In this document: piece after piece, positions 49,374-63,695 of the stretch
Position numbering within the stretch: the first letter of the stretch is position 1
Layout: the number at the start of each line of letters is the position of its first letter
Origin: Candidatus Moanabacter tarae
GTDB lineage: Bacteria; Verrucomicrobiota; Verrucomicrobiia; Opitutales; UBA2987
Reading direction: 5' to 3'
NCBI GenBank assembly: GCA_003226295.1
Contig: CP029803.1
Coordinates: forward strand, 1,358,211 to 1,422,210
Length of the DNA: 64,000 nt
Notes under the pieces: model-generated
Told to the model about the DNA's origin: nothing
Database searches by the model: none
What the model saw: only the letters and a program-made list of their open reading frames with translations
Translations under genes and position numbers: made by a program

Positions 49374-49952
49374 AGTTGTATTCGGGCTAAAAGAATTTAT
49401 TGCACGCTCCTAATTCCCCTTAACCACAGTCAGGTTGAATTTTAGAATCTAACACAAGTCAAGCTATGGTCTCAAAAGAAAAAGTACCAAGAAACGATTA
49501 AAATACTTGCGTAGTCAATTATGGGATACTCGGTTATTCCAGTCCAAATCGTAATACAACCTGCAGAAGAATACGCAATAATTTCCCCAATCACACAAGA
49601 TTAACAAAACCCATTATCCAAACAGTTTATCAGGAGTCCGCTACAATCAATCTCTCTTAATTAGGGAAACCCATATGTCTAAGGATTTATTAAAAAGGCC
49701 GAAGAAGGATACAGTAGTACGGCAAAGACATTGCGATTTAATCCTAACGTCTCTTTTATTCGCGTGTGCCCTAAGTCACTTGGTATTTGGAAAAATCAAC
49801 CAGATAGAATATTTCCTAAAAAAACGCTGATTCAGCCCGTGAGGACATAAAGTTTTGATCTCATTCGGAAAGAACAGAGCTCCGATTTGCTTGCATTTAT
49901 TCCCATTTGTTTCTCCGGTACAATCAGTAATCATTCACTAATCCCCGTGAAT
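49374..49952. other. Long region between divergent genes with one small frame
   Basis: This 579-base stretch separates the minus-strand isomerase-like gene and the plus-strand acyl-activating enzyme. Only a 51-codon frame (49675-49830), listed separately, has a plausible start. No RNA gene or clear repeat was found; the promoters of both flanking genes must lie here. Confidence 0.4.
49675..49830 (+). CDS. Possible small membrane protein (51 residues)
   Basis: An ATG frame of 51 codons encodes a basic start (MSKDLLKRPKKD) and one hydrophobic segment (DLILTSLLFACALSHLVF), with a cysteine within LLFAC that could suit a lipoprotein or single-pass membrane peptide. An AGGGA sequence lies seven bases before the start. 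No family is recognised. It lies about 120 bases before the acyl-activating enzyme on the same strand. Confidence 0.3.
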   Translation: MSKDLLKRPKKDTVVRQRHCDLILTSLLFACALSHLVFGKINQIEYFLKKR

Positions 49953-51926
49953 ATGGGACACCCGACACCATCAGACGACAACAAATCACAATGGTTCGAC
50001 TTCATCAAAGAAGTCACAGCAAATCCCTCAATCCCTTTCGATCATCACTGGTCGAAATTTCAACAAATCTTCGAGAGGCAGGCCCCACCCGATGGACCTC
50101 CCCCCGTCTGGTATCCTCGAGAAGAGGAGTTCTCTTCAAGCAACCTTGCCCAGATAATGCTAGATCTCGGCATAGACAATTACTCAGACCTTCATACTTG
50201 GTCCATCAATAATCGTCCTGCCTTTTGGCAGTATGTCATTCAGCATCTCGGCATTGCCTTCGAAAAACCACCGGACCGTATACTTGATCTGACTAATGGA
50301 GTGAGTGACCCTCGCTGGCTTCCCGGTGCAAAAATGAATATTACAGACAGCTGTTTCCAAGTACCAGGAGACAAAACCGCAATCGTTTCTGGCAAGGAGG
50401 GATTATCAGATCTAACCGTTACCACCTACGGAGAGCTAGAATCTCTGGTCAATCGATTCGCCAATGGAATTAGAGACCATGGCTTAGCGAAAGGTGATGC
50501 TATCGGAATTTACATGCCCATGACGATGCCTTGTGTCGCCGCGTATTTGGGCACAGTCCGTTCCGGCTGCCAGGTCGTTTCTATTGCCGATAGCTTTTCC
50601 CCTGACGAAGTCCGGACTCGTATGGAAATCGCTGGAGCCAAAGTGATCTTAACAGTCGATCAATATTATAGGGCGGGTAGAAATATCCGGCTCTACGATA
50701 ATGTTAAAGAAGCTGGAATCAAACGAGCCATCGTAATCGAAGGGGATAACAAAGCAGAACTCAAAAAAGACGATATTACCTGGGAAGACTTTCTCTCAAA
50801 AGAGACCTCCTTCACATCCGTAACGGACGATCCCTACCAATATTCGAACATCTTATTCTCTTCCGGCACCACTGGAACACCCAAAGCGATACCATGGACC
50901 CATCTGACACCAATCAAATGTGCTATGGACGGCCATTTTCATGGAGATCTGAGCCCAAATGATATAGCCAGCTGGCCCTCTAATATCGGCTGGATGATGG
51001 GCCCCTGGCTTATTTATGCGTCACTCCTCAATCACGCCGCGATGGCACTCTACGAGGGGGCTCCTATTGGTCCTTCCTTCACATGTTTCGTTGAGAAAGC
51101 TAGGGTTTCTTTTCTCGGTGTCGTTCCCTCACTCGTTCGCACCTGGCGGACACAGCGGGCAATAGAGGGTGGTGACTGGACAGGAATTCGAATATTTGCT
51201 TCTACCGGTGAGCCGTCGAACCGCGAAGACTATCTATGGCTAATGAGCAAGACCGGATATCGCGCGCCAGTAATTGAGTACCTTGGCGGGACTGAGATAG
51301 GAGGTGGACATATAACGGGATCAGTAGTCCATCCAGCTTCTCCAGCTACTTTCACAACTCCCTCGCTTGGACTTGATTTTATCATCCTCGACGATAATGA
51401 CCAACCAGTTGGAGAGAATGAAATAGGAGAACTCTATCTTATCCCACCTTCCATTGGGCTATCGCAGAACCTGCTGAATAAGGATCACGAGGAGGAATAC
51501 TACACGGGTTGTCCAAACGGCCCAGACGGAGAAGTACTTAGACGGCATGGTGACACAATTGCCCGTCTCCCAAAAGGATTTTTTAGAGCCCAAGGCCGAT
51601 CTGATGACACCATGAATCTGAGTGGTATAAAAGTTAGCTCCCTTGAACTGGAACGGATTATCGATACTCACGATTCGGTTTATCAGAGCGCTGCTGTCGC
51701 AGTGCAACCCAGTGGAGAAGGAGCTGAGAAATTAGTAATATTTGCGGTCCTTATATTGATAAGAGATTGCAAGACCCTCCAAGGAGAACTGCAGACTCTG
51801 ATTGGGAAATTCCTCAACCCACTTTTTAGAATTCACGATCTAGTTATCATTGATAGTCTACCACGTACTGAATCCAACAAAATAACACGCCGCTCTCTTA
51901 GAGCCCAATATCTTTCATATAAATGA
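49953..51926 (+). CDS. Acyl-activating enzyme (AAE17/18-like acetyl-CoA synthetase family)
   Basis: From ATG 49953 the protein is 657 residues (a TTG frame would add 22). It has an acetyl-CoA-synthetase-type N-terminal region (HHWSKFQQIFERQAPPDG), the P-loop motif SSGTTGTPK (about 303-311), GGTEIGGGHITGSVV, and GRSDDTMNLSGIKVSSLELE with the hinge. A catalytic lysine lies in SNKITRRSL at the C terminus. The IGGGHITGS and GIKVSS-x-E-x-E signatures resemble plant acyl-activating enzymes 17/18. The natural acid is unknown. A thiolase follows after about 58 bases. Confidence 0.8.
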   Translation: MGHPTPSDDNKSQWFDFIKEVTANPSIPFDHHWSKFQQIFERQAPPDGPPPVWYPREEEFSSSNLAQIMLDLGIDNYSDLHTWSINNRPAFWQYVIQHLGIAFEKPPDRILDLTNGVSDPRWLPGAKMNITDSCFQVPGDKTAIVSGKEGLSDLTVTTYGELESLVNRFANGIRDHGLAKGDAIGIYMPMTMPCVAAYLGTVRSGCQVVSIADSFSPDEVRTRMEIAGAKVILTVDQYYRAGRNIRLYDNVKEAGIKRAIVIEGDNKAELKKDDITWEDFLSKETSFTSVTDDPYQYSNILFSSGTTGTPKAIPWTHLTPIKCAMDGHFHGDLSPNDIASWPSNIGWMMGPWLIYASLLNHAAMALYEGAPIGPSFTCFVEKARVSFLGVVPSLVRTWRTQRAIEGGDWTGIRIFASTGEPSNREDYLWLMSKTGYRAPVIEYLGGTEIGGGHITGSVVHPASPATFTTPSLGLDFIILDDNDQPVGENEIGELYLIPPSIGLSQNLLNKDHEEEYYTGCPNGPDGEVLRRHGDTIARLPKGFFRAQGRSDDTMNLSGIKVSSLELERIIDTHDSVYQSAAVAVQPSGEGAEKLVIFAVLILIRDCKTLQGELQTLIGKFLNPLFRIHDLVIIDSLPRTESNKITRRSLRAQYLSYK

Positions 51927-51984
51927 TCTCTTACCCCGCACTTCATTCCCTTCAAATACTTCTGAATTACAAAATCTATTGAGA

Positions 51985-53106
51985 ATGACTCAAAGACGTG
52001 TAGCCATTGTAGCAGGGGGCCGAACCCCTTTTGTTAAATCCGGAAAGACCTTCAAAAATCTCAGTCCGTTGGCGTTAGCAAAGCACACCGTCAATGGTTT
52101 GATGGACCGTCATCAAGTTATCCCAGATAAAATAGAAGCTATCTCCGTCGGAGTCGTTGTGCCGGAACCAGGAAAACCCAATCTTGCTCGCGAGATTGTT
52201 CTGGAAACAGGGCTGCCCGCCTCGATTGAAGCACAGACCGTCTCCTCGTACTGTATCTCCGGTCTGCGGTCGATTACAATCATCGCCGACGCTATTGCAT
52301 CGGGAAGAATCGATGCTGGCATTGCGGCAGGCGTAGAATCCCTCTCCCAAGCCGACATCAACTACTTTAAGGAACCGAGCTCCGGGCTACTGATGGGAGA
52401 ACACATGGAACTTACCATCAAAGATTGGGTAATACCCCGAGTAGACCAGGATAGACTCGCGCTCAACAGCCATCGCAATGCAATCGAGTCCAGGAAACGC
52501 CTTGCTGAGCAAATCTTTCCACTCCTTGGAGAAGACTCTGATTCAGGACCGAGGACAGACACCTCTTTGAAGGCTTTGACCGAGCTTCAACCTGCCTTTG
52601 GAGAAGCTGGAACTCTCACTGCAGGTAATTCATCTCCAGTCTCTGATGGTGCTGCTGCGGTACTTCTCATGAGCGAAGAACGGGCGTCTTTAGAACAAAG
52701 AGTACCTCTCGCCTTTATCCGTGGAATGGAATATAGTGCCCTCCATCCTAGAGAAGGGTTATTTATGGCCCCAGCCTTAGCCGTACCGCGTCTCTTAAAG
52801 CACACTGGTCTTAAGCTATCAGATATCGATTTAATTGAAATACATGAGGCCTTTGCAGCAGTCCCATTAGCTAATGCAAGAGCTTGGGAACAGGGCTGGA
52901 AGGAAGCACCTACCGGACGAGTAGATTGGAATAGGGTCAATGTGTGCGGCAGTTCCATAGCTATCGGTCATCCCTGGTCTGCAACTGGAGGGCGCATCGT
53001 TACGACCGTCGCTTACGAAATGACGAGACGGGACGTAAAATACGGACTTGTCAGTATCTGCGCCGCTGGCGCAATGGCCGGAGCGTTCCTACTAGAACGC
53101 AACTAA
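51985..53106 (+). CDS. Thiolase family acyl-CoA acetyltransferase
   Basis: From ATG 51985 the protein is 373 residues (TTG 51979 would add two). The acylated cysteine is Cys90 in SSYCISGLRSI. The HEAFAAVPLANARAW and SSIAIGHPWSATGGR motifs supply the conserved histidines, and SICAAGAMAGAFLLE the second cysteine. The HEAF and CAAG forms resemble FadI-type 3-ketoacyl-CoA thiolases, but the protein is 20-60 residues shorter in the loop domain (120-170). It would cleave or condense acyl-CoAs. It follows an acyl-activating enzyme. Confidence 0.83.
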   Translation: MTQRRVAIVAGGRTPFVKSGKTFKNLSPLALAKHTVNGLMDRHQVIPDKIEAISVGVVVPEPGKPNLAREIVLETGLPASIEAQTVSSYCISGLRSITIIADAIASGRIDAGIAAGVESLSQADINYFKEPSSGLLMGEHMELTIKDWVIPRVDQDRLALNSHRNAIESRKRLAEQIFPLLGEDSDSGPRTDTSLKALTELQPAFGEAGTLTAGNSSPVSDGAAAVLLMSEERASLEQRVPLAFIRGMEYSALHPREGLFMAPALAVPRLLKHTGLKLSDIDLIEIHEAFAAVPLANARAWEQGWKEAPTGRVDWNRVNVCGSSIAIGHPWSATGGRIVTTVAYEMTRRDVKYGLVSICAAGAMAGAFLLERN

Positions 53107-53570: not shown

Positions 53571-54665
53571 ATGCCCTACAAAATGATCCAGGTGGGTACC
53601 GGGGGCCGGGGTAAAGCCTGGACCAGCCAGATCCTTCCCCCGAATATCGAGGACGGACTTATCGAGGTTGTCGCTGCGGTCGATATAAACCCTGAAATGC
53701 TGTGCAATGCCCAGGACGATCTCGGCTTGAGCACTGAGAAATGTTACACCGACATTCATCGTGCCTTCGACGAACACACTGCCGACTTTTGTACGATTGT
53801 AGTTCCACCCGATTTCCACGAGAATGTGGTAGATTTAGCATTAGAACATGGGATGCACATTCTATCTGAAAAACCAATTTCGGATACCATGTCTGGTTCC
53901 ATCCGCATCGCAAAAAAAGTTAAAGAGCAAGGGATTAAAATGGGAGTGACTATGAGTCACCGATTCGATCAGGACAAAACAACTCTCCGAGAAGAACTCC
54001 GGTCCGGGCTGCACGGCAGCCTTGATTACCTCGTTTGCCGCTTTACCTGTAACTGTAGAAAATACGGGGCCTGGGGAGCAAAGTTTCGCCATGAAATCAA
54101 AGACGTACTCATGATCGAGGGATCGGTCCATCACCTTGATATCCTCGCCGATATGGCGGGCTCCAAGTGCGATACAATTTATGCCCAAACCTGGAATCCT
54201 AAGTGGGGAGATTACGGAGGAGACTCTCAGGCTTTAGTGACGATGCAGATGGAAAACGGGACCCGCGCAATTTACGAAGGCGCCAAAACCAACGCAAAAG
54301 GGTTGAACGGGTGGGGCCAAGAATATATTAGAGCGGAGTGTGAAGAAGCAACGCTCATCATGAATTGCCGCCGAATCGAAAGATTTTCCTTCGACCCATC
54401 TAATACCCTAGCTAACAAGAAGGAAGGTGAAGGCCAAGAAATTCCCCTAATCGAACATCGCAAGTGGAAAGACACCTGGCTGGTGGAGAAATTTGTGCAT
54501 TGGCTTGACGGAGGGGAGCCGATGGAGACCAATGTCGAAGATAACCTGCAGTCAGTTGCTCTTATTTTCTCGGCCATCGAAAGCAGCCAGACCGGGAAGC
54601 CAGTTAAAGTCCAAGAGTTCCTTGCAAATGCGCTAGGAGAGATTGAAGATCGAGGCAATTCCTAG
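53571..54665 (+). CDS. Gfo/Idh/MocA family oxidoreductase
   Basis: The 364-residue protein begins with a Rossmann motif (MIQVGTGGRGKAW, about 4-16), followed by VVAAVDINPEM, and carries ILSEKPISDTMSG with the EKP motif near residue 102. The catalytic EGSVHHLDILADMAG segment (about 184-198) supplies the family's histidine. It would oxidise a sugar or cyclitol with NAD(P). It is the first of a plus-strand run with a PhyH dioxygenase and an SDR. Substrate unknown. Confidence 0.85.
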   Translation: MPYKMIQVGTGGRGKAWTSQILPPNIEDGLIEVVAAVDINPEMLCNAQDDLGLSTEKCYTDIHRAFDEHTADFCTIVVPPDFHENVVDLALEHGMHILSEKPISDTMSGSIRIAKKVKEQGIKMGVTMSHRFDQDKTTLREELRSGLHGSLDYLVCRFTCNCRKYGAWGAKFRHEIKDVLMIEGSVHHLDILADMAGSKCDTIYAQTWNPKWGDYGGDSQALVTMQMENGTRAIYEGAKTNAKGLNGWGQEYIRAECEEATLIMNCRRIERFSFDPSNTLANKKEGEGQEIPLIEHRKWKDTWLVEKFVHWLDGGEPMETNVEDNLQSVALIFSAIESSQTGKPVKVQEFLANALGEIEDRGNS

Positions 54666-54846
54666 AAATTCCTACACTCGACATCCATCCATCTCATCGC
54701 GATTCAATCGGAACTTGGCGGGATCTACTGTTTCAATGCTCTGTTAGTCAAACCTCGACCCTGGGTTTCGCAGATAAGATCTAGTTTACTTGTTTTTCCA
54801 TCCTGATTCCACTAAAATAAAGTTTTCTGAGTATATCTGTCATGTT

Positions 54847-55674
54847 ATGTCACAACACTTCAAATCCAACTGCACTCTAGAACCTGAAAAGATTGGGAAT
54901 TTAGTAGAAACCTTTAATCGCGATGGCTTCCTTTTCCTAGAAAATGTTCTCACTGCAGACCATGTCGCCCAATTAAAAACAGACCTTGATTGGTCTTTGG
55001 AAAACCTCAGCTCTATTGATGAAGACCCAGAAGGCAAAGTTAGCAGTCGGGAATCGACGTATAACACCTTGCTCTGTCAACGAATGTTTGAACACAGTCC
55101 TGCTAATTTGAATCTGTTCGACCTCGAGCCTATCGCCAGTTTAGCCGAAGCATTAGTGGCACCTACTTGTCACGTTATTCACAACAACTCGTTCATCACT
55201 CGACCGGGAGGCGGAATCACAAAATGGCACCAAGACGATCCGCCTCACATGATCGTAACACATGGGCACCCACCAACCAACATTCAACTGCCTGTCCTTG
55301 CGTTCACCTGCAACTACTACCTGACTGATGTCACTAAGGTCGAGCACGGTGGCACAGAAACAATTCCGGGTTCTCATCTCTTTGGATCCGACGTTAGAGA
55401 AATCAACGTCGACGCTGAATACTCAGATCAAGTCCGACACAATTTGGGGAAAGCAGGAAGTGTCATAATGTTCAACAACCAAGTATGGCACCGAGGCGGT
55501 CCCAATCACAGCAAACGTACGCGCTTTATAACCCAAGTCACTTACGGGCGCCGCCTGATCGGACACAAATACGCACCTTTTATGAATTACACCATGCCGG
55601 AACACGTCTACAAGAACGCAAATCCCAGACTTAAACGACTGCTTGGCTTCCTTCCCAGAGGAGCGTATGGGTAA
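54847..55674 (+). CDS. PhyH-family Fe(II)/2-oxoglutarate dioxygenase (1)
   Basis: From ATG 54847 the protein is 275 residues; a TTG frame at 54790 would add 19. The phytanoyl-CoA dioxygenase fold is shown by the FNRDGFLFLENVLTADHV start, by KWHQDDPPH with the iron ligands His128 and Asp130, and by WHRGGPNHSKRTR with the third iron ligand His215 and a nearby arginine for 2-oxoglutarate. ETIPGSHLFG is the usual PGSH turn. It would hydroxylate an unknown substrate using oxygen and 2-oxoglutarate. It lies between Gfo/Idh and SDR genes. Confidence 0.87.
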   Translation: MSQHFKSNCTLEPEKIGNLVETFNRDGFLFLENVLTADHVAQLKTDLDWSLENLSSIDEDPEGKVSSRESTYNTLLCQRMFEHSPANLNLFDLEPIASLAEALVAPTCHVIHNNSFITRPGGGITKWHQDDPPHMIVTHGHPPTNIQLPVLAFTCNYYLTDVTKVEHGGTETIPGSHLFGSDVREINVDAEYSDQVRHNLGKAGSVIMFNNQVWHRGGPNHSKRTRFITQVTYGRRLIGHKYAPFMNYTMPEHVYKNANPRLKRLLGFLPRGAYG

Positions 55675-55843
55675 TTTAGTTTCCCACGGTTCGGCAAGTG
55701 GAATTAGGCATGTATCGTCGAAACATACGAACCAAGATTTGACACATAATTTCAGTATTCAGGAAATCTCAAAGATTGGGAACCACGATCAGACGGACCG
55801 AAAACAAGTATGGCAGGTCCCATAGATTACCAGATCTATAAAC

Positions 55844-56653
55844 ATGAAACAACTATTGGACAAAGTCATAATTGTCACTGGCAGCACTACGGGTATTGGG
55901 AAAGCGATTGCTCGAAAATGTTTAGAAGAAGGAGCAAAAATCATTGTCTCTGGGCGAAATCGCAAGAGAGGAGAGGAGGTGGTGCATGAGTTAGGAGGAG
56001 CGGTCACGCTTCACATTGACGATCTTACCGACCCTTCTACTGGCAGTCGGCTTGTGCAAACAGCGCTGAAGGCCTACGGTAAGGTAGATGGGATTGTCAA
56101 TAATGCTGCCTGGGTTATCAGAAGTAATCTAGAAACAACCAATGTCGATCTCTTCGATCGGGTCATGTCCATCAACGTCCGAGCACCTCTCTTCTTAGTC
56201 AAAGCAGCGATGCCCGAGTTGATAAAGACTTCAGGCGCCATTATCAACATCGGGTCGGTCAACGGTTACACAGGAGCCGCCACACAACTCGACTACAGCA
56301 TTTCAAAGGCAGCACTTATGTGCCTCTCACGCAATCTCGCCAATGCCTACGCACACCAAAAGGTTCGCATCAACCACCTTAATGTCGGATGGGTTATCAC
56401 TCCCAATGAAAACAGGTTGAAAATCAAAGAGGGATTTCCAGAGGGTTGGTCCGAGGATCCGCAAATCACCGGAACTCCTACTGGCAAAATGACTCAGCCT
56501 GAGGAAATCGCCAATCATGCTATTTTCTGGCTCAGCAATGCCAGCCGCCCGATTACAGGAAGCGTTATGGAACTTGAGCAATATCCATTTATCGGCCGTA
56601 TTGTTCCGAGCGAACTAGAAAAGGCACTTAAGGAACCAGTCGAAGCCGGATAA
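55844..56653 (+). CDS. Short-chain dehydrogenase/reductase
   Basis: The 269-residue SDR has the coenzyme motif TGSTTGIGKAIA (12-23), NNAAWV, and the catalytic YSISKAA (Tyr-x3-Lys) preceded by a serine in INIGSVNGY. It uses NAD(P) to oxidise or reduce a hydroxyl or keto group. It follows the PhyH gene by about 170 bases and is the last of the plus-strand Gfo/Idh-PhyH-SDR run. A role in oxidising a sugar or an alcohol made by the dioxygenase is a reasonable inference. Confidence 0.87.
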   Translation: MKQLLDKVIIVTGSTTGIGKAIARKCLEEGAKIIVSGRNRKRGEEVVHELGGAVTLHIDDLTDPSTGSRLVQTALKAYGKVDGIVNNAAWVIRSNLETTNVDLFDRVMSINVRAPLFLVKAAMPELIKTSGAIINIGSVNGYTGAATQLDYSISKAALMCLSRNLANAYAHQKVRINHLNVGWVITPNENRLKIKEGFPEGWSEDPQITGTPTGKMTQPEEIANHAIFWLSNASRPITGSVMELEQYPFIGRIVPSELEKALKEPVEAG

Positions 56654-56895
56654 GATTCAGATTAAATCAACTTAGCAGTATATCCCTGCAACAGGTAGAA
56701 GTAAGCTGATTTTTTCATTGGCTCTACATTTATCGGATCAACCCTTACAATCGGAACCTGTTTAGGTCAAAGCCAACCAGGAAGCATTTCCATCTTCCGG
56801 TACCTTATTACTCGAATCTATTATTCGTTGGTTAAATCTCGCACAGCTTCAAGGACAAAAGTACCGCCTATTTATATACATATTTAACCAAATTT

Positions 56896-57981
56896 TCAGC
56901 GAACGATCCTCCCGGAACCTGAACCCTTCATGAGTGCTTCAACTTCTTCTTTCTGGGAAAAATTGAAATCCCCCTGGATGGAGTGCTTGAGACAAGATGC
57001 AGCTGTCGCAAAATTAAGTGCTATTTGGGGCTCTGAATATTCCGACGAATTTAGGCAGAAGATCAGGCCGCCGGCAAAAGAATCTCCACCACCTACCCGA
57101 TCTACTATGTCTCTTATCTGGTAAGGTTGGTAGGCTCCATTATTAAGAGGTGCAAAGAGAGCTTCGTCCTCCATCCCAATGTAAAGCATTGCTCCCCAGT
57201 TGTTGTGCGAAGCAGAAACACTCTCTCTTAGTGTAATTGCCACTTTCTGAACGTTAGGAAACTCACTCACAAGCTTTCGTGCCACATCGGGATAACGATC
57301 TATTCCGAGCGATCCAGCTTCCACATTAGTCGCTTCAGCACGGATACCTAGAACATCTGAACAGTCTTCTTCATTGGCCAGAACAAGATCCACAAACGGC
57401 AGAATTTTTCGCATGACCACCTCCGCTAGGTCGCGAGGTTCCATGGAAGGGTCCCATCGCCAGAGCTTCTTACGATAATTGATATCGCAGGAAACTTCGA
57501 GTCCCGCTGCTTTCGCTCTTCTTACCGCTTCGAAAGTTGAATCCGCTGCCAGCTTGGAAATGGCAGGGGTGATCCCGGTAACGTGTAACCAGCTTGAATC
57601 CTCGAAGATTGGGTCCCATTCGAACTGGGCAGGAGGAGTGAGTGCAATCGATGAGTCATTCCGATCATAGAGCACTGTACCGGGACGTTGGTTAGCTCCA
57701 GTTTCGACAAAATAGAGACCTAGTCTCCCATAGTCAGTCATCAAAATGCCACTCGTATCGATCCCAACGGATCTCAAAAAGTCCCTGCAAGCTTGGCCTA
57801 GTAGGTTATTCGGAATTGCGGTAACAAACCCGGCCTTTGTACCAAGCATACAAATAGATGCGGCGACATTGGCTTCCCCACCGGCATAGGTCACACTAAA
57901 GGATCTCGACTGTCTGATTCTCGAAAAGCCTGGGGTAGCCAGTCGCCCCATAATTTCACCGAATGTTATTATCTTCTTCAC
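56896..57981 (-). CDS. kdgK: PfkB-family kinase, 2-keto-3-deoxygluconate kinase-like
   Basis: The ribokinase-fold enzyme (361 residues from GTG 57981) has the N-terminal glycine motif SVTYAGGEANVAASICMLG, the substrate-binding RPGTVLYDRNDSSIAL typical of KDG kinases, and the catalytic VDRVGGGDSFAGGLIF with its aspartate base. It would phosphorylate 2-keto-3-deoxygluconate or a related keto-deoxy sugar acid. A longer frame from TTG 58047 overlaps the GNAT gene by four bases; the GTG site fits the family N terminus (KKIITFGEIM). It may share a transcript with the GNAT gene. Confidence 0.82.
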   Translation of the reverse strand: MKKIITFGEIMGRLATPGFSRIRQSRSFSVTYAGGEANVAASICMLGTKAGFVTAIPNNLLGQACRDFLRSVGIDTSGILMTDYGRLGLYFVETGANQRPGTVLYDRNDSSIALTPPAQFEWDPIFEDSSWLHVTGITPAISKLAADSTFEAVRRAKAAGLEVSCDINYRKKLWRWDPSMEPRDLAEVVMRKILPFVDLVLANEEDCSDVLGIRAEATNVEAGSLGIDRYPDVARKLVSEFPNVQKVAITLRESVSASHNNWGAMLYIGMEDEALFAPLNNGAYQPYQIRDIVDRVGGGDSFAGGLIFCLNSSEYSEPQIALNFATAASCLKHSIQGDFNFSQKEEVEALMKGSGSGRIVR

Positions 57982-58043
57982 TGCAAGGAATCCAAAACAG
58001 CCATCATCTTTAATCAAAACCAAGCCGAACCAACAGATCAACC

Positions 58044-58553
58044 TCAATCTCGGATGCTCAGCTTTTCAATTATAATGTCCCATCTCATCGCATGGCTTTG
58101 ATGAGTATTCAGTGGTTCAAACCCCACTGATAAGTAACACTTAATCGCTGCAAGCCGCCAGTCATCAGTCTGCAAATGGGCAACTTTAAAACCGGTCTCT
58201 TTCAATCTATGAAGGACAGCAACATTGAGCATATAACCCAAAAGTTTCCTACGGTGTGCCTCATGGATTGCAACCATGTGAACCTCTCCAACTCTCTTCT
58301 CTTCGATCGCTTTCCGCCAGGCACAAGCACTGCCTACTGGTTCCCTATTAAAAGTTGCAAAAAAAAGACCCTCTCGATCGAACCGAGAATCGTAGATTAG
58401 CCTTTCTCGGCACTTTTCGATCGTCCAACCAATTCCAATATTCCCCTCCATAATAGCGCACCAAGCCGCCTCGTCTCCGTCTTTATAGCTTCTCAGGCCA
58501 TACCCCTGAGGCACAGCTATCTCCGGCAAGTTCTTAAAGTCTGCTCGCAACAT
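58044..58553 (-). CDS. GNAT-family N-acetyltransferase
   Basis: From ATG 58553 the protein is 169 residues; a TTG start at 58604 would add 17. The GNAT fold is visible: GYGLRSYKDGDEAAWCAIM near the start, then VHMVAIHEAHRRKLLGYMLNVAVLHRLKETG, which contains the acetyl-CoA-binding region, although the canonical Q-x-x-G-x-G/A is altered. AIKCYLSVGFEPL follows. It would acetylate an amine of an unknown metabolite or protein. It lies directly upstream of the KDG-kinase-like gene. Confidence 0.75.
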   Translation of the reverse strand: MLRADFKNLPEIAVPQGYGLRSYKDGDEAAWCAIMEGNIGIGWTIEKCRERLIYDSRFDREGLFFATFNREPVGSACAWRKAIEEKRVGEVHMVAIHEAHRRKLLGYMLNVAVLHRLKETGFKVAHLQTDDWRLAAIKCYLSVGFEPLNTHQSHAMRWDIIIEKLSIRD

Positions 58554-58604
58554 CTCCAGCTGCGGTAAAGGAAGACCATCCCCAGAATCTGGATTTTTTT
58601 TCAA

Positions 58605-58971
58605 TCTATACTGATTTCTTCTAAAATAAATTTACAGATCCCGCCCATCGGAATCTTGTTCCGGATAAAGTAATCTTTACACAATTAACAGACAAAATTG
58701 GAGAAATTTGAGGTGGAACCAGAAATATTCTTTGGGAAATTTTCCTTATTATGGCACATGATTAATCTCTGGCAAATAAACCTAATTAAATCAATGGTTT
58801 CGCTGGCACCCTGTGTATCTGGATCGGACATAATCGCTTGTCTCCGCATACACTAAATAAAAATACCCCAGTAATAGAAGCTCCTCTATACCGAGTCTAT
58901 TTCCCGTATACCTTTAGATGATTTTTCGTTGCTATCCTTGTACTCATTTATAAATTCTCACGAGCAATCCC
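58605..58971. other. Divergent intergenic region, nothing recognised
   Basis: This 367-base AT-rich gap lies between the divergent GNAT and PhyH (2) genes. I see no convincing small gene, RNA gene or clear repeat. It presumably holds promoters for both sides. Confidence 0.45.
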
Positions 58972-59772
58972 GTGCACAAATCGTTCCAATCACTGACCTA
59001 TAGCACCCGCCAACATTCTCAATTCGAGAAGGATGGCTACTTACGTCTTGGTAGGTTACTGTCATCTGATGATCTATCAGACCTCCGCACACGTATTGAC
59101 GATCTCATGTTGGGCAACCGTATCATAGATGGAATCACTTTCCAGCTCGATGATTCCCACAGCAACCGCTATAAGAACCTCAGTAGCAGGACGAATGGCG
59201 CCTCCAAACAAACTCTAGCCTATCGGCGTATCGATGAACTTCACCTTGATCCATTCTTTCTCAGATACATGCAGCACCCCATTTTCCGCGATATCACTCG
59301 TCGTTATATTGGAGAAAATGTCTCGATTTTCCGTTCCATGTTTATGAATAAACCCGCCAATGGAGGAACCGAACTGCCTTGGCATCAGGACGTAGGCGCG
59401 GGCTGGGGAATCGATTCGGATCCTACCACAACTGTTTGGACAGCTCTTGATGACGCCTCCGTCGCAACCGGATGTATGCAGATTGTCCCTGGAAGCCATC
59501 ACCTAGGGATCCTAAATCAAGGCCATTTCATCTCAAAGGAGGATCAAATTGCCTACTGTTCTCAGGATCAAATAATCGATCTTGTTGTCCCGGCCGGAGA
59601 AGCAATACTGATCCATAACTGGGTCCTACACCGCTCAGGCATTAATAAAACGGGTAACCCGAGGAGGGCCTTCAGTATCGCTTATATGGATGCTGCCACT
59701 AGAAGTGTTAAAAGCGGGCAGACATTCCCGGTCATTTTCGGAGAAGGACCGTTCCCTTCCTCCGGAAAATAG
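58972..59772 (+). CDS. PhyH-family Fe(II)/2-oxoglutarate dioxygenase (2)
   Basis: This 266-residue protein starts at GTG and shows the phytanoyl-CoA dioxygenase fold: FEKDGYLRLGRLLSSDDL near the start, LPWHQDVGAGWG with iron ligands His138 and Asp140, IVPGSHHLG, and WVLHRSGINKTGNPRRAF with His220 and the 2-oxoglutarate arginine at 231/232. It is divergent in sequence from the other PhyH proteins here, so it is not a recent duplicate. Substrate unknown. Confidence 0.87.
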   Translation: MHKSFQSLTYSTRQHSQFEKDGYLRLGRLLSSDDLSDLRTRIDDLMLGNRIIDGITFQLDDSHSNRYKNLSSRTNGASKQTLAYRRIDELHLDPFFLRYMQHPIFRDITRRYIGENVSIFRSMFMNKPANGGTELPWHQDVGAGWGIDSDPTTTVWTALDDASVATGCMQIVPGSHHLGILNQGHFISKEDQIAYCSQDQIIDLVVPAGEAILIHNWVLHRSGINKTGNPRRAFSIAYMDAATRSVKSGQTFPVIFGEGPFPSSGK

Positions 59773-60005
59773 CTGGGTACAGAAAGCTTTAAGTCACAAG
59801 CAGCCGGCAATTTTACTTTCCGTAGAGATTTTCGAGTGATCACAAAAGCCTTTTCATTTCAGGAGAGATTAATCCAGTTAATTCTTATCTCAACGGTAAA
59901 CTGAACTGAGTCTAAACTCAGTAAAACTAAGCAAGTAAGTCATTTGGTGCAAAAACCAAATCTCCAACCTTGACAAGAATATCTTAACGAAATGCTTCCT
60001 TGTCA

Positions 60006-61238
60006 CTAGTCATCTAGGCGCCCGCTCTCCCAGGATCCAAACCAATTCTCTAGTGTCATTTCAGCCGGAACTTTCTCGAAATGGTAGAAAGTTTCCTGGC
60101 CTTGGAAACCTGGAAATAAACTCAGTTTTTTCTGCTGCATAACATCGTCTACAGGCTTGAATCGTTCCCAGATCATCCTAGCCTCCTCTGCAGTGAAACG
60201 CTCACTAAGCGGCATTCCCCATTGCAATGTCATTGGATGCACCTGAGTCACCCCCTGCTTCTCGTTTTCAGTAAGAGTTTCCGGATCGCGACAGCAGTGA
60301 TTATAGATGTGCTTCGCCGTCTTACTTAAACAAATCGTTGATTTTATGACACCCTTATCTCCCCTCTTGGGAAATAGCTCTTCTAACGCGGCAAGATAAG
60401 CCTTGGAGTCTTTAGCTATGACTGCTTGGAATGCATCTATAGCATAATCCATATATCCGATAGCCCTTTTATGCCATCGCCTGAAAGTCTCTTGCGCACT
60501 GGGTTCTAGGTATTGGATCCAACTCGTGGACTCCCAGTTCGTAAGCCTCGAGAAGCCCCCGTGAATGGTACGTCGAAGCCTGTTCGAATAATTGCTTCCC
60601 CAATGCAGAATCGGAAGGATATAGGCAACCCCGTCCCCAGCCTTTAAATGCGTCTGTATGCCACCTGGAACCGCTACACAGGGATCGCGTTTGATAGACT
60701 CGTTTTCTTCTTCAGTATTCGGCCGTAAATGACTACCAGGGATAACCCATAAGACATCATCATCGTAAAGTGGAATATTCCACTGAACATAACGAGGTCC
60801 AGTCTCAAGGATATCATCAACATAAGCCATCAATGGAGCATTTAGCGGTGGATAAAAGTCACGGTGCCACTTCGCTGGTCCCCGATCCGTCACCGGATTG
60901 CACATCATCATCATCTCGGTGGGCGGGCAGTCTTCTTCTGAAATCAGATAACTACTCAACCCATGAACATTTTCGCGCAACCAGAATTCGATTGTGTCTG
61001 CTGTTTGCTTGCTATGCAAACCATCCATCCTGTTGATCATTAGTCGTGGCTGGGCGCTTGTCTCCCAAATACCACCAGATGGGTCCCCTGGACGAGCTTC
61101 ACTGGCCCAGACTTCACGCTGTCTATCAACAAGGATCTCGTGGCTTTTTCTAAGCGTTTCAAGATCACCTGGAGGTATCAACCCACGACAAATCACAAAT
61201 CCCCGTTCGAGGAATTCATCACGGCTTGCTCTGATCAT
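60006..61238 (-). CDS. PhyH-family Fe(II)/2-oxoglutarate dioxygenase (3), long form
   Basis: The 410-residue protein has the PhyH core in its first 230 residues: FLERGFVICRGLIPPGDL, AKWHRDFYPPL with iron ligands His125 and Asp127, WVIPGSHLRP, and LHWGSNYSNRLRRTIHGGF with His212 and arginines 222/223. The last 180 residues are a mostly helical extension (WHKRAIGYMDYAIDAFQAVI and a TLQWGMPLSERFTAEEARMIWERF segment) not seen in the other three. It starts at ATG. It is on the opposite strand to its PhyH neighbours. Substrate unknown. Confidence 0.85.
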   Translation of the reverse strand: MIRASRDEFLERGFVICRGLIPPGDLETLRKSHEILVDRQREVWASEARPGDPSGGIWETSAQPRLMINRMDGLHSKQTADTIEFWLRENVHGLSSYLISEEDCPPTEMMMMCNPVTDRGPAKWHRDFYPPLNAPLMAYVDDILETGPRYVQWNIPLYDDDVLWVIPGSHLRPNTEEENESIKRDPCVAVPGGIQTHLKAGDGVAYILPILHWGSNYSNRLRRTIHGGFSRLTNWESTSWIQYLEPSAQETFRRWHKRAIGYMDYAIDAFQAVIAKDSKAYLAALEELFPKRGDKGVIKSTICLSKTAKHIYNHCCRDPETLTENEKQGVTQVHPMTLQWGMPLSERFTAEEARMIWERFKPVDDVMQQKKLSLFPGFQGQETFYHFEKVPAEMTLENWFGSWESGRLDD

Positions 61239-61591
61239 ACTGTAATTATAGCAGTCGAACTTTGGTTGTCGAATCCTGATTTAAATTTGACACGCGTTAA
61301 TGGAGATTAGTCTCACTTATTCAAATTGCAGAATAGTTATTTTTAGCATTCTAGGGATGGGCAGCACATTCTCCGTAAAAGACAAGGATTAGAACAACTG
61401 AGCCCCAATATTCCATTCTCCCTTGGAAAGTTCTTCATCTATCTACCCTATTACGGGGCAGATTAATTAAGCTCGAATGTTAAATAAATCCTCGAAGAAG
61501 AAATTTTTGTACTGGCGTTTAAGGATGCATTAATTCAGTACAAATCCGCTTTAAGAATTGGATAAAAAGAGCTAATTAAAGGATCTCCGTC
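61239..61591. other. Divergent intergenic region, nothing recognised
   Basis: The 353 bases between the divergent PhyH (3) and galactonate-dehydratase-like genes contain no trusted gene or repeat that I can see. Only the AAAGGA ribosome-binding site of the downstream gene, at about 61578, is clear. Confidence 0.45.
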
Positions 61592-62752
61592 ATGCCCAAA
61601 AATAACAAAGAAAAGACCCTGAATACTGGACTGGAAGATGCAGAACCCATCAATCCAAAAGACTCGATAAAAGTCACCAAGATTGAAACATTCACTCTCA
61701 CAAACTCTTGGGTTTTTGTTAAAATTTCGACCGATACAGGAATCGCGGGTTGGGGGGAAATGCTCAAGGATGATGCGAAAGCTTGTGCTGCTGGAGCACT
61801 CGAGGTTGCACCCTATTTAGTTGGCAAAGATCCCAGAGCAGTGGTACACCATTGGCAAGCCATCCATAGGGGGGCTTTCTATCGAGGTGGCCCAATCAAG
61901 AGCGCAATCTCCTCAGGCATCGATCAGGCCCTCTGGGACATCACAGGAAAGTGTTACGGCGTACCAGTCTACAAGTTATTGGGTGGTCCAACCCGAAAAC
62001 GGGTTCGGGTCTACGGTACGGTGAGCAAAACCACCGGTGTTAATGCCATGAAAGTCGGACCCAATACCACCCGTCAGGCTTTTAAATACATCGAAGGTCA
62101 GAAGTTTGTTGATGAAGTAGCGGAGAGATTCGAAGCACTACGTAATGAACATGGGCCAGAAGTTGACATCGCGATCGACTTTCACGGGGCCGTACAACCA
62201 CCAACGGCCCTACTACTCATGAAGGCACTGGAGCCTTATCACCCCTGGTTCTATGAGGAGATCGTTCAGGCCCTCAATGTAGGAGTAATGGCCGAACTAG
62301 CAAAGAAAACACATATCCCAATCGCAACCGGGGAACGGATATTCACCAAATGGGGTTTTAAGGAGATTCTCGAGAAACGGGCTGCAACTATATTACAGCC
62401 GGATGTTTGCTACGCGGGAGGCATAACCGAGATGAAAATCATCGCTGGTATGGCCGAGGCCTATTACACACCCTTGGCCCCCCACAATCCACAAGGCCCC
62501 TGTTCCCTAGCTGCAAGCCTACAGATCGCAGGAGCAATTCCAAACTTTCTCATCCAAGAGCGCGGAGACTATGATTACATGGACTTACTAGCAAAACCAT
62601 TACCGATGGTCACTGAAGGCTATCGCCCGTTACCAAACGAACCAGGTCTAGGAATCACAATCGATGAGGATAAACTCATGGCCCAGGTGGGCGAACCAAA
62701 GCCCTATCGCGTTGAATTTGATCCCGATGATGGATCAGTTGTTGACTGGTAA
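61592..62752 (+). CDS. Enolase-superfamily dehydratase, D-galactonate dehydratase-like
   Basis: The 386-residue enzyme matches the DgoD subgroup of the mandelate-racemase branch. Metal ligands appear to be Asp196 (IDFHG), Glu222 or Glu223 (YEEIV) and Glu248 (TGERIF). The acid/base histidines are His198 in DFHG and His298 in LAPHNPQGP, and both are kept. It would dehydrate a sugar acid to its 2-keto-3-deoxy form, which the KDG-kinase-like protein in this region could phosphorylate. The N-terminal 25 residues are longer than usual. It starts at ATG with AAAGGA upstream. PhyH (4) follows after 85 bases. Confidence 0.87.
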   Translation: MPKNNKEKTLNTGLEDAEPINPKDSIKVTKIETFTLTNSWVFVKISTDTGIAGWGEMLKDDAKACAAGALEVAPYLVGKDPRAVVHHWQAIHRGAFYRGGPIKSAISSGIDQALWDITGKCYGVPVYKLLGGPTRKRVRVYGTVSKTTGVNAMKVGPNTTRQAFKYIEGQKFVDEVAERFEALRNEHGPEVDIAIDFHGAVQPPTALLLMKALEPYHPWFYEEIVQALNVGVMAELAKKTHIPIATGERIFTKWGFKEILEKRAATILQPDVCYAGGITEMKIIAGMAEAYYTPLAPHNPQGPCSLAASLQIAGAIPNFLIQERGDYDYMDLLAKPLPMVTEGYRPLPNEPGLGITIDEDKLMAQVGEPKPYRVEFDPDDGSVVDW

Positions 62753-62837
62753 GATGCAACCGACATCAACGACCGTGGTTTTTTCTTTTGTATGGATAAG
62801 CATGCAAGTGTAATCGGGGCCAGATAGAGGACTGAAA

Positions 62838-63695
62838 ATGGACAGCAGAAATTGGATACATAATTGTGCAACCAAGGCACAACTAGAGCAATTCGAAGAG
62901 CAGGGGTACCTGATAGTTGAAGATGCTTTGACTCCTGACCTCCTAAGCCAAATAAACAAAGCCGTTGACCGAATCTGGAGTAAGGAGCGAAAGGCACAAA
63001 ACCTGGCCACCGATCAATTACTGGCCAAGTTTCGCACCATAGTCGAAGATGACATCTTTTTGGAACTCCTCGACAACCCCAAAACCTTTCCCCTTCTTTG
63101 GGATATTCTCGGCTGGAACATACAGCTATATATCTCGCATTTAATCGTCTACCCACCCGAGCAAAGGAACAGAGAGATAAAACCGGGCCATTGGCACCAG
63201 GATGGCGGGCGGCCAGTATGCGAAATGGAACGACCCCAACCGCGGCTATCCCTCAAGGTTAGCTATTGGTTGAGTGATGTGGATACACCCGAAAACGGAG
63301 CAATGACGATTATCCCGCGCAGTCATAAATCAGATACAAAGCCTGAAGCTTGCGATACCGGAATAGGCACACTACCAATATGCGTCAAAGCGGGAACCGC
63401 CGTTCTTTTCGACCGTCGGATGTGGCATCGGCGCGGGATCAACACTTCCGATGTGACACGACGAGTCCTTTTCTTCGGATACAGCTATCGATGGCTCCGA
63501 GGTTTGGACTACAATAATCTGTCGATGCAAATTCTATCGAAATGCGATCCTATTCGCCGTCAACTCCTCGGCGATGGCGTAGATGTAAAAGGGTGGTGGC
63601 AACCAACAGAAGAGGATGTACCACTCAAAGGCTGGTTAGAGAAGCATCGTGGCAAGGAATACGTAGCTTCTCTGGATAAAGCATCCAGAGGATAA
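62838..63695 (+). CDS. PhyH-family Fe(II)/2-oxoglutarate dioxygenase (4)
   Basis: The 285-residue protein has the PhyH pattern: QFEEQGYLIVEDALTPDLL near the start, GHWHQDGGRP with iron ligands His120 and Asp122, TIIPRSHKSD, and MWHRRGINTSDVTRRVLF with His197 and arginines 208/209. The C-terminal GDGVDVKGWWQPTEEDVPLKGWL is typical of one PhyH subgroup in Planctomycetes and Verrucomicrobia. The ATG follows a GAGG site. It is 85 bases past the DgoD-like gene and about 40 bases before a DsbA-like gene, so these three may be co-transcribed. Confidence 0.87.
   Translation: MDSRNWIHNCATKAQLEQFEEQGYLIVEDALTPDLLSQINKAVDRIWSKERKAQNLATDQLLAKFRTIVEDDIFLELLDNPKTFPLLWDILGWNIQLYISHLIVYPPEQRNREIKPGHWHQDGGRPVCEMERPQPRLSLKVSYWLSDVDTPENGAMTIIPRSHKSDTKPEACDTGIGTLPICVKAGTAVLFDRRMWHRRGINTSDVTRRVLFFGYSYRWLRGLDYNNLSMQILSKCDPIRRQLLGDGVDVKGWWQPTEEDVPLKGWLEKHRGKEYVASLDKASRG

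Follow-up and report, generated by a model that had tools for sequence, protein, structure and literature searches.

Gene content and organization of the locus

The window analyzed here is a 64,000-nucleotide stretch of the Candidatus Moanabacter tarae genome, a single contig (G000:C1, here C1) of 2.63 Mb that belongs to the Opitutales (Verrucomicrobiota). Towards its end lie genes for four PhyH-family oxygenases (PhyH-A to PhyH-D), interspersed with genes for a Gfo/Idh/MocA oxidoreductase, a short-chain dehydrogenase (SDR), a PfkB-type kinase and a DgoD-like dehydratase of the MR/MLE family (Table 1). All eight had been named in a first-pass annotation made from the sequence alone, and their open frames, positions and family assignments hold. 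The GNAT gene upstream of the kinase, the mixed strands and the continuation of the island beyond the window had been omitted. Judged from strand and spacing the island genes are no single operon but fall into five or more units, with members on either strand: Gfo/Idh–PhyH-A–SDR (+), GNAT–kinase (-), PhyH-B (+), PhyH-C (-) and DgoD–PhyH-D (+). PhyH-D starts 85 bp after DgoD on the same strand, and this last unit may extend past the window end, where the island runs on with genes for a DsbA-like protein, a Gfo/Idh protein, a xylose-isomerase-like TIM barrel and an M19 dipeptidase. In all the island spans ~20 kb (from about 47.6 kb to about 67.8 kb on the window scale) with housekeeping genes on either side, which, from reading the sequence and not from profile matches, we take to be GroEL and DnaK on the left and ptsI-type and isoprenoid-type genes on the right. 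Repeats, promoters and terminators were sought within the island and none was found above chance. Immediately 5' of the island genes lies an AMP-binding ligase/thiolase pair (49887-53106), likely a single unit given the 53-bp gap.

Table 1. Genes of the island in the window and of the adjoining pair (window coordinates).
Feature	Position	Strand	Evidence
AMP-binding acyl/acetoacetyl-CoA synthetase-like	49887..51926	+	Pfam AMP-binding 1.5e-50; best NCBIfam matches far under cut-offs
Thiolase (acetyl-CoA acyltransferase)	51979..53106	+	TIGR01930, 341.7 bits vs cut-off 240.6
Gfo/Idh/MocA oxidoreductase	53571..54665	+	Weak inositol 2-dehydrogenase likeness, 78 bits vs cut-off 355
PhyH-A, Fe(II)/2OG oxygenase	54790..55674	+	Pfam PhyH E=1.2e-19, 71.9 bits; WHQD...H...R complete
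SDR, short-chain dehydrogenase	55844..56653	+	adh_short_C2 1e-44
KDG/KDGal-type PfkB kinase	56896..58047	-	NF041633 residues 242-580, 1.9e-127; PF00294 4e-24
GNAT acetyltransferase, upstream of kinase	58044..58604	-	Acetyltransf_1 7.6e-11
PhyH-B	58972..59772	+	Pfam PhyH E=3.7e-30, 106.2 bits; WHQD...H...R complete
PhyH-C, divergent long (410 aa) PhyH-like oxygenase	60006..61238	-	WHRD...H...R complete; 18.3 bits
DgoD-like MR/MLE sugar-acid dehydratase	61592..62752	+	PRK14017, 367.2 bits vs cut-off 311
PhyH-D	62838..63695	+	Pfam PhyH E=2.4e-19, 70.9 bits; WHQD...H...R complete

The four PhyH proteins

PhyH-A, PhyH-B and PhyH-D exceed the Pfam cut-off for the family (PF05721, 22 bits). PhyH-C lies under it (E=0.003), whereas its paralogue at C1:1761036, 38-40% identical, does exceed it. 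PhyH-B also has a paralogue, 42% identical and downstream of an MR/MLE gene (C1:739511). Alignment showed the HxD...H iron triad and the 2-oxoglutarate-binding Arg, 11 residues past the distal His, in all four proteins. The complete iron sites reported by the first-pass annotation were thus confirmed, as was the little mutual similarity among the four (26-34% over partial local alignments).

The AF2 model of PhyH-D (pLDDT 84.9) matched the double-stranded beta-helix (DSBH) oxygenase fold in Foldseek, with AndA, DhiD and SptF as matches (TM about 0.66-0.68). As these are fungal and bacterial natural-product oxygenases at ~20% identity, no substrate was called from the fold. The model of PhyH-C was discarded (pLDDT 54.5), and a sequence search of the PDB gave no match for this protein. 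PDB sequence matches of the other three were weak and mixed, and the best structure matches of the PhyH proteins are likewise diverse and weak (EvdO2, PHYH, PHYHD1, EctD, DhiD and AndA), including a match of PhyH-B to PHYHD1 (2OPW) at 1.4e-11.

By their motifs the four proteins look like active Fe(II)/2-oxoglutarate oxygenases, which would hydroxylate or O-dealkylate small molecules, probably several different substrates. PhyH-D alone is a fair candidate for the DgoD route, since its gene directly follows DgoD in the same orientation. PhyH-like enzymes, including one from Poribacteria, demethylate 2'-O-methyl nucleosides (PMC12709175), and because they remove an O-methyl group from ribose, sugar O-demethylation by PhyH enzymes gains plausibility and would be chemically reasonable. 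The window proteins share both Pfam family and iron site with these PHYHD1/FJS demethylases (PMC12709175), but are equally similar to other PhyH enzymes, and neither their sequences nor the fold comparison point to the O-demethylase group in particular.

A DgoD-like dehydratase that has lost its export signal

The dehydratase passes the equivalog cut-off of PRK14017 and is by family a putative D-galactonate/aldonate dehydratase. In alignments with DgoD of PDB 3RR1 and with five relatives all metal ligands and acid/base residues were kept (DFHG, EE, GER, QPD, APH), in agreement with the earlier claim that both catalytic histidines (DFHG, APH) are present. The subfamily differs from 3RR1 in being shorter between the first barrel strands, which was seen in six of six members (the window protein, L136-L139 and L064). 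Moreover, all five relatives begin with a Tat signal (twin-arginine, SRRNWL or similar) and are Tat-exported, and the window copy does not; it has a short hydrophilic N-terminus, with a ribosome-binding-like AAAGGA about 10 bases before its ATG. Since the Tat signal of the relatives is lost, the window enzyme is probably now cytosolic, in the compartment of the kinase.

Orthologues of the dehydratase (74-78% identical) were found only in one family of the order, f7 (G009, G033, G048 and G063). No PhyH or kinase gene lies within about 10 kb of them, where the neighborhood in G009 is limited by a contig of only 12.5 kb (G009:C80). Their neighbors are presumably sulfatase-like and GMC-oxidoreductase-like, as read from frame starts without profiles. 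In a planctomycete (L064) a DgoD gene (84%) directly precedes a kinase gene (60%).

The kinase and its distant aldolase partner

The kinase resembles the kinase half of a KHG/KDPG aldolase-sugar kinase fusion (NF041633), which is matched end to end; the aldolase domain is absent, and the score is 426 bits against a cut-off of 700 for the whole fusion. Its orthologues align from residue 20-25, and the real start is probably near 57981. In a tree the window kinase is nested in an aldolase-partnered family as sister of a kinase from another Opitutales genome, G013 (support 97/92). Orthologues adjoin a KHG/KDPG aldolase gene in Opitutales (L062, L066, L140-L142), spirochaetes and planctomycetes, and those of the Opitutales sit with the aldolase, not with PhyH. 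Co-transfer of DgoD and kinase from planctomycetes was considered and rejected, as the kinase groups with G013 and not with the pair-bearing L064.

A missing aldolase had been remarked on earlier. There is indeed none in the window, but the genome encodes a single KHG/KDPG aldolase (C1:1690043; L145:9043-9693) 274 kb from the kinase, and the absence is thus explained by the usual kinase partner being encoded elsewhere. The window kinase is not the sole candidate, because a second, KduD-type KDG kinase paralogue is found at C1:513415. The dehydration and phosphorylation steps proposed by the first-pass annotation hold by the family assignments of the DgoD-like protein and the kinase.

Gene order in related genomes

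Conserved PhyH–DgoD–KdgK linkage had been put forward as a check on the idea of one pathway. Orthologue searches and neighborhood comparisons did not find the three-gene linkage in 70 Opitutales genomes, and only the DgoD–kinase pair recurs, in the one planctomycete. The outcome named beforehand as speaking against one pathway, a lack of conserved linkage in close relatives, has thus largely come about. A weaker form of the proposal draws support from the planctomycete pair and from a gene row in the same-family genome G001, described below. Three genomes of the same family (G001-G003, 81-93% complete) are without orthologues of both DgoD and the kinase. Of 141 genomes of the class, just two, G146 and G109, have an orthologue of the Gfo/Idh protein (~50%), and neither orthologue has a PhyH gene next to it (one is on a 3.2-kb contig). 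The general association of PhyH with sugar-acid genes has support from two places. In G001 a co-directional row encodes a DHDPS aldolase, an MR dehydratase, an AKR and a PhyH protein, together with transporter and SDR genes, and in G063 a PhyH gene adjoins an MR gene whose product carries a Tat signal, with TRAP-like and sulfatase-like genes next to them.

PhyH counts across the 70 Opitutales genomes are mostly 0-9, with exceptions in G016 (104), G065 (37), G036 (29) and G001-G003 (11-21). The corresponding MR counts are 18, 8 and 7 in G016, G065 and G036, and elsewhere in the Opitutales the PhyH expansion is thus largely uncoupled from that of MR. In G016 (2.1 Mb, 82% complete) many of the PhyH genes are packed on one 34-kb contig (G016:C12; L167, L168). 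On PhyH in Opitutales nothing was found in the papers searched.

Expansion and clustering of PhyH and MR/MLE genes in the genome

Profile searches of the whole genome matched 84 PhyH, 62 Gfo/Idh and 49 SDR proteins, besides the one KHG/KDPG aldolase. MR_MLE_C gave 66 matches, or about 64 genes since two are split in two. With the gene total estimated at 2,100-2,300, extrapolated from the 50 frames of 120 aa or more that fit into 64 kb without overlap, PhyH accounts for an estimated ~3.5-4% of genes and MR/MLE for ~3%. Runs of four PhyH genes in 9.2 kb were seen seven times genome-wide, versus 0.28 expected under uniform placement, with PhyH-C entered into the PhyH list by hand. The PhyH clustering is therefore real, and the window cluster is one of several.

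The two expanded families share catabolic regions. Thirty PhyH genes have an MR gene no more than 5 kb away, as compared to 14.8 expected under random rotation (p=0.004; no such excess for ABC transporters, 5 vs 8.8), and an MR gene lies just upstream of and co-directional with PhyH in six cases versus 1.3 (rotation p=0.004). Against a regional control, in which each PhyH gene was shifted only 3-15 kb, the corresponding values are p=0.60 for adjacency, p=0.30 for co-directional pairs and p=0.07 for MR upstream. Adjacency as proof of a functional tie was accordingly rejected, as its enrichment vanishes against regional density.

Three tandem duplicates were observed on C1: PhyH 847653/848513 (99.9%, unit 860 bp), MR/MLE 790340/791541 (100%, 1201 bp) and SDR 1743042/1743921 (100%, 879 bp). 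They suggest a recent, continuing expansion, or are assembly artefacts. Furthermore, about 6 of the 51 PhyH paralogues examined are without the Asp of HxD (LHGG, LHNG, HMGG, MHMHG, LHGN; L146, L147, L148, L144 and L169, near C1 positions 423000, 430858, 445071, 838512, 1347850 and 1453928). Fe/2OG halogenases carry Gly or Ala in place of this Asp, and these paralogues may therefore be halogenases or perform other chemistry.

Both expansions have counterparts in other bacteria. In Candidatus Poribacteria PhyH is the most abundant family, with >1.9% of genes in every genome (PMC3909097). The present genome is similarly PhyH-rich but belongs to a different phylum and combines PhyH with large MR/MLE and Gfo/Idh sets. 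SAR202 group I carries 80 enolase-superfamily (COG4948) genes, about 2.8% of CDS, for which many parallel sugar-acid pathways were proposed (PMC10444878, PMC6946804), and this share is the top among prokaryotes in that survey (PMC10444878). The expansion seen here is alike, but the SAR202 pathways are described as non-phosphorylative, whereas the window locus has an aldolase-partnered kinase; PhyH is mentioned in neither of the two papers.

Interpretation of the island

We consider it probable, while well short of assured, that the locus is a catabolic island specific to this lineage, which supplies a phosphorylative Entner–Doudoroff trunk and has PhyH genes drawn from a genome-wide pool. The genome would be specialised in the oxidation of sugars, sugar acids and similar small molecules. 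By what is known of their families, dehydratase, kinase and aldolase would act in this order. From an aldonate the cytosolic DgoD-like enzyme would form a 2-keto-3-deoxy sugar acid, the kinase would convert this to its 6-phosphate, and the distant KHG/KDPG aldolase would cleave the latter to pyruvate and glyceraldehyde 3-phosphate. The Gfo/Idh protein and the SDR probably supply dehydrogenase steps, and the four PhyH proteins would hydroxylate or O-dealkylate small molecules as part of the pool of about 84 such enzymes. What was observed are the families with their motifs, the order of the genes, the counts across the genome, the partner aldolase and the Tat loss; the compartment, the order of steps and the catabolic role of PhyH we infer.

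The first-pass annotation went further and placed all four PhyH proteins and the sugar-acid genes in one pathway that unmasks, e.g. by O-demethylation, a substituted sugar or cyclitol. The genes and families of this island are real, and the idea draws on four oxygenases that all look active by motif, on PhyH-D lying so closely behind DgoD, on PhyH-like enzymes able to strip O-methyl from ribose (PMC12709175) and on the PhyH gene in the MR-AKR-DHDPS row of G001. Against it stand the division of the genes, which lie on both strands, into five or more units, the orthologues of DgoD, kinase and Gfo/Idh that occur elsewhere with no PhyH neighbor, and the recurrence of four-PhyH runs in 10 kb within the genome. 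The argument for a single pathway is weak because the locus is a patch of a PhyH-packed genome and its gene order is not common to relatives; we regard one pathway as quite improbable, and the locus as real but over-interpreted. The opposite extreme, a chance neighborhood in which PhyH, MR/MLE and Gfo/Idh genes pile up by duplication and transfer in the same flexible regions and the PhyH substrates are unrelated (nucleosides, phosphonates, compatible solutes, host or algal metabolites), is unlikely but deserves more weight. In its favor, PhyH-MR adjacency is no higher than regional density, the copy numbers of the two families are uncoupled across Opitutales, and the PhyH structure matches are diverse and weak. 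The same-strand neighbors DgoD–PhyH-D and Gfo–PhyH-A–SDR argue for more than chance, as do the co-directional MR-then-PhyH pairs, whose excess is clear under rotation and marginal regionally (p=0.004 vs p=0.07).

A more specific proposal, which we offer as a long shot, is that PhyH-D and the many MR/MLE-adjacent paralogues are intracellular sugar O-dealkylases that remove methyl or other blocking groups from sugars of algal or host origin, so that cytosolic dehydratases feed a shared kinase-aldolase trunk. If true, PhyH O-dealkylation would be an oxygen-dependent 'unmasking' front end for sugar catabolism, in contrast to the P450-dependent route that serves methylated sugars of marine origin.

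More interesting than the island itself is the double PhyH and MR/MLE expansion with its apparently recent, perfect tandem duplicates. In marine and symbiotic bacteria, few families of uncharacterised oxygenases are as large as PhyH. This small single-contig genome joins a Poribacteria-like PhyH expansion and a SAR202-like dehydratase expansion with one KHG/KDPG aldolase, and thereby offers a compact system for asking what PhyH oxygenases do.
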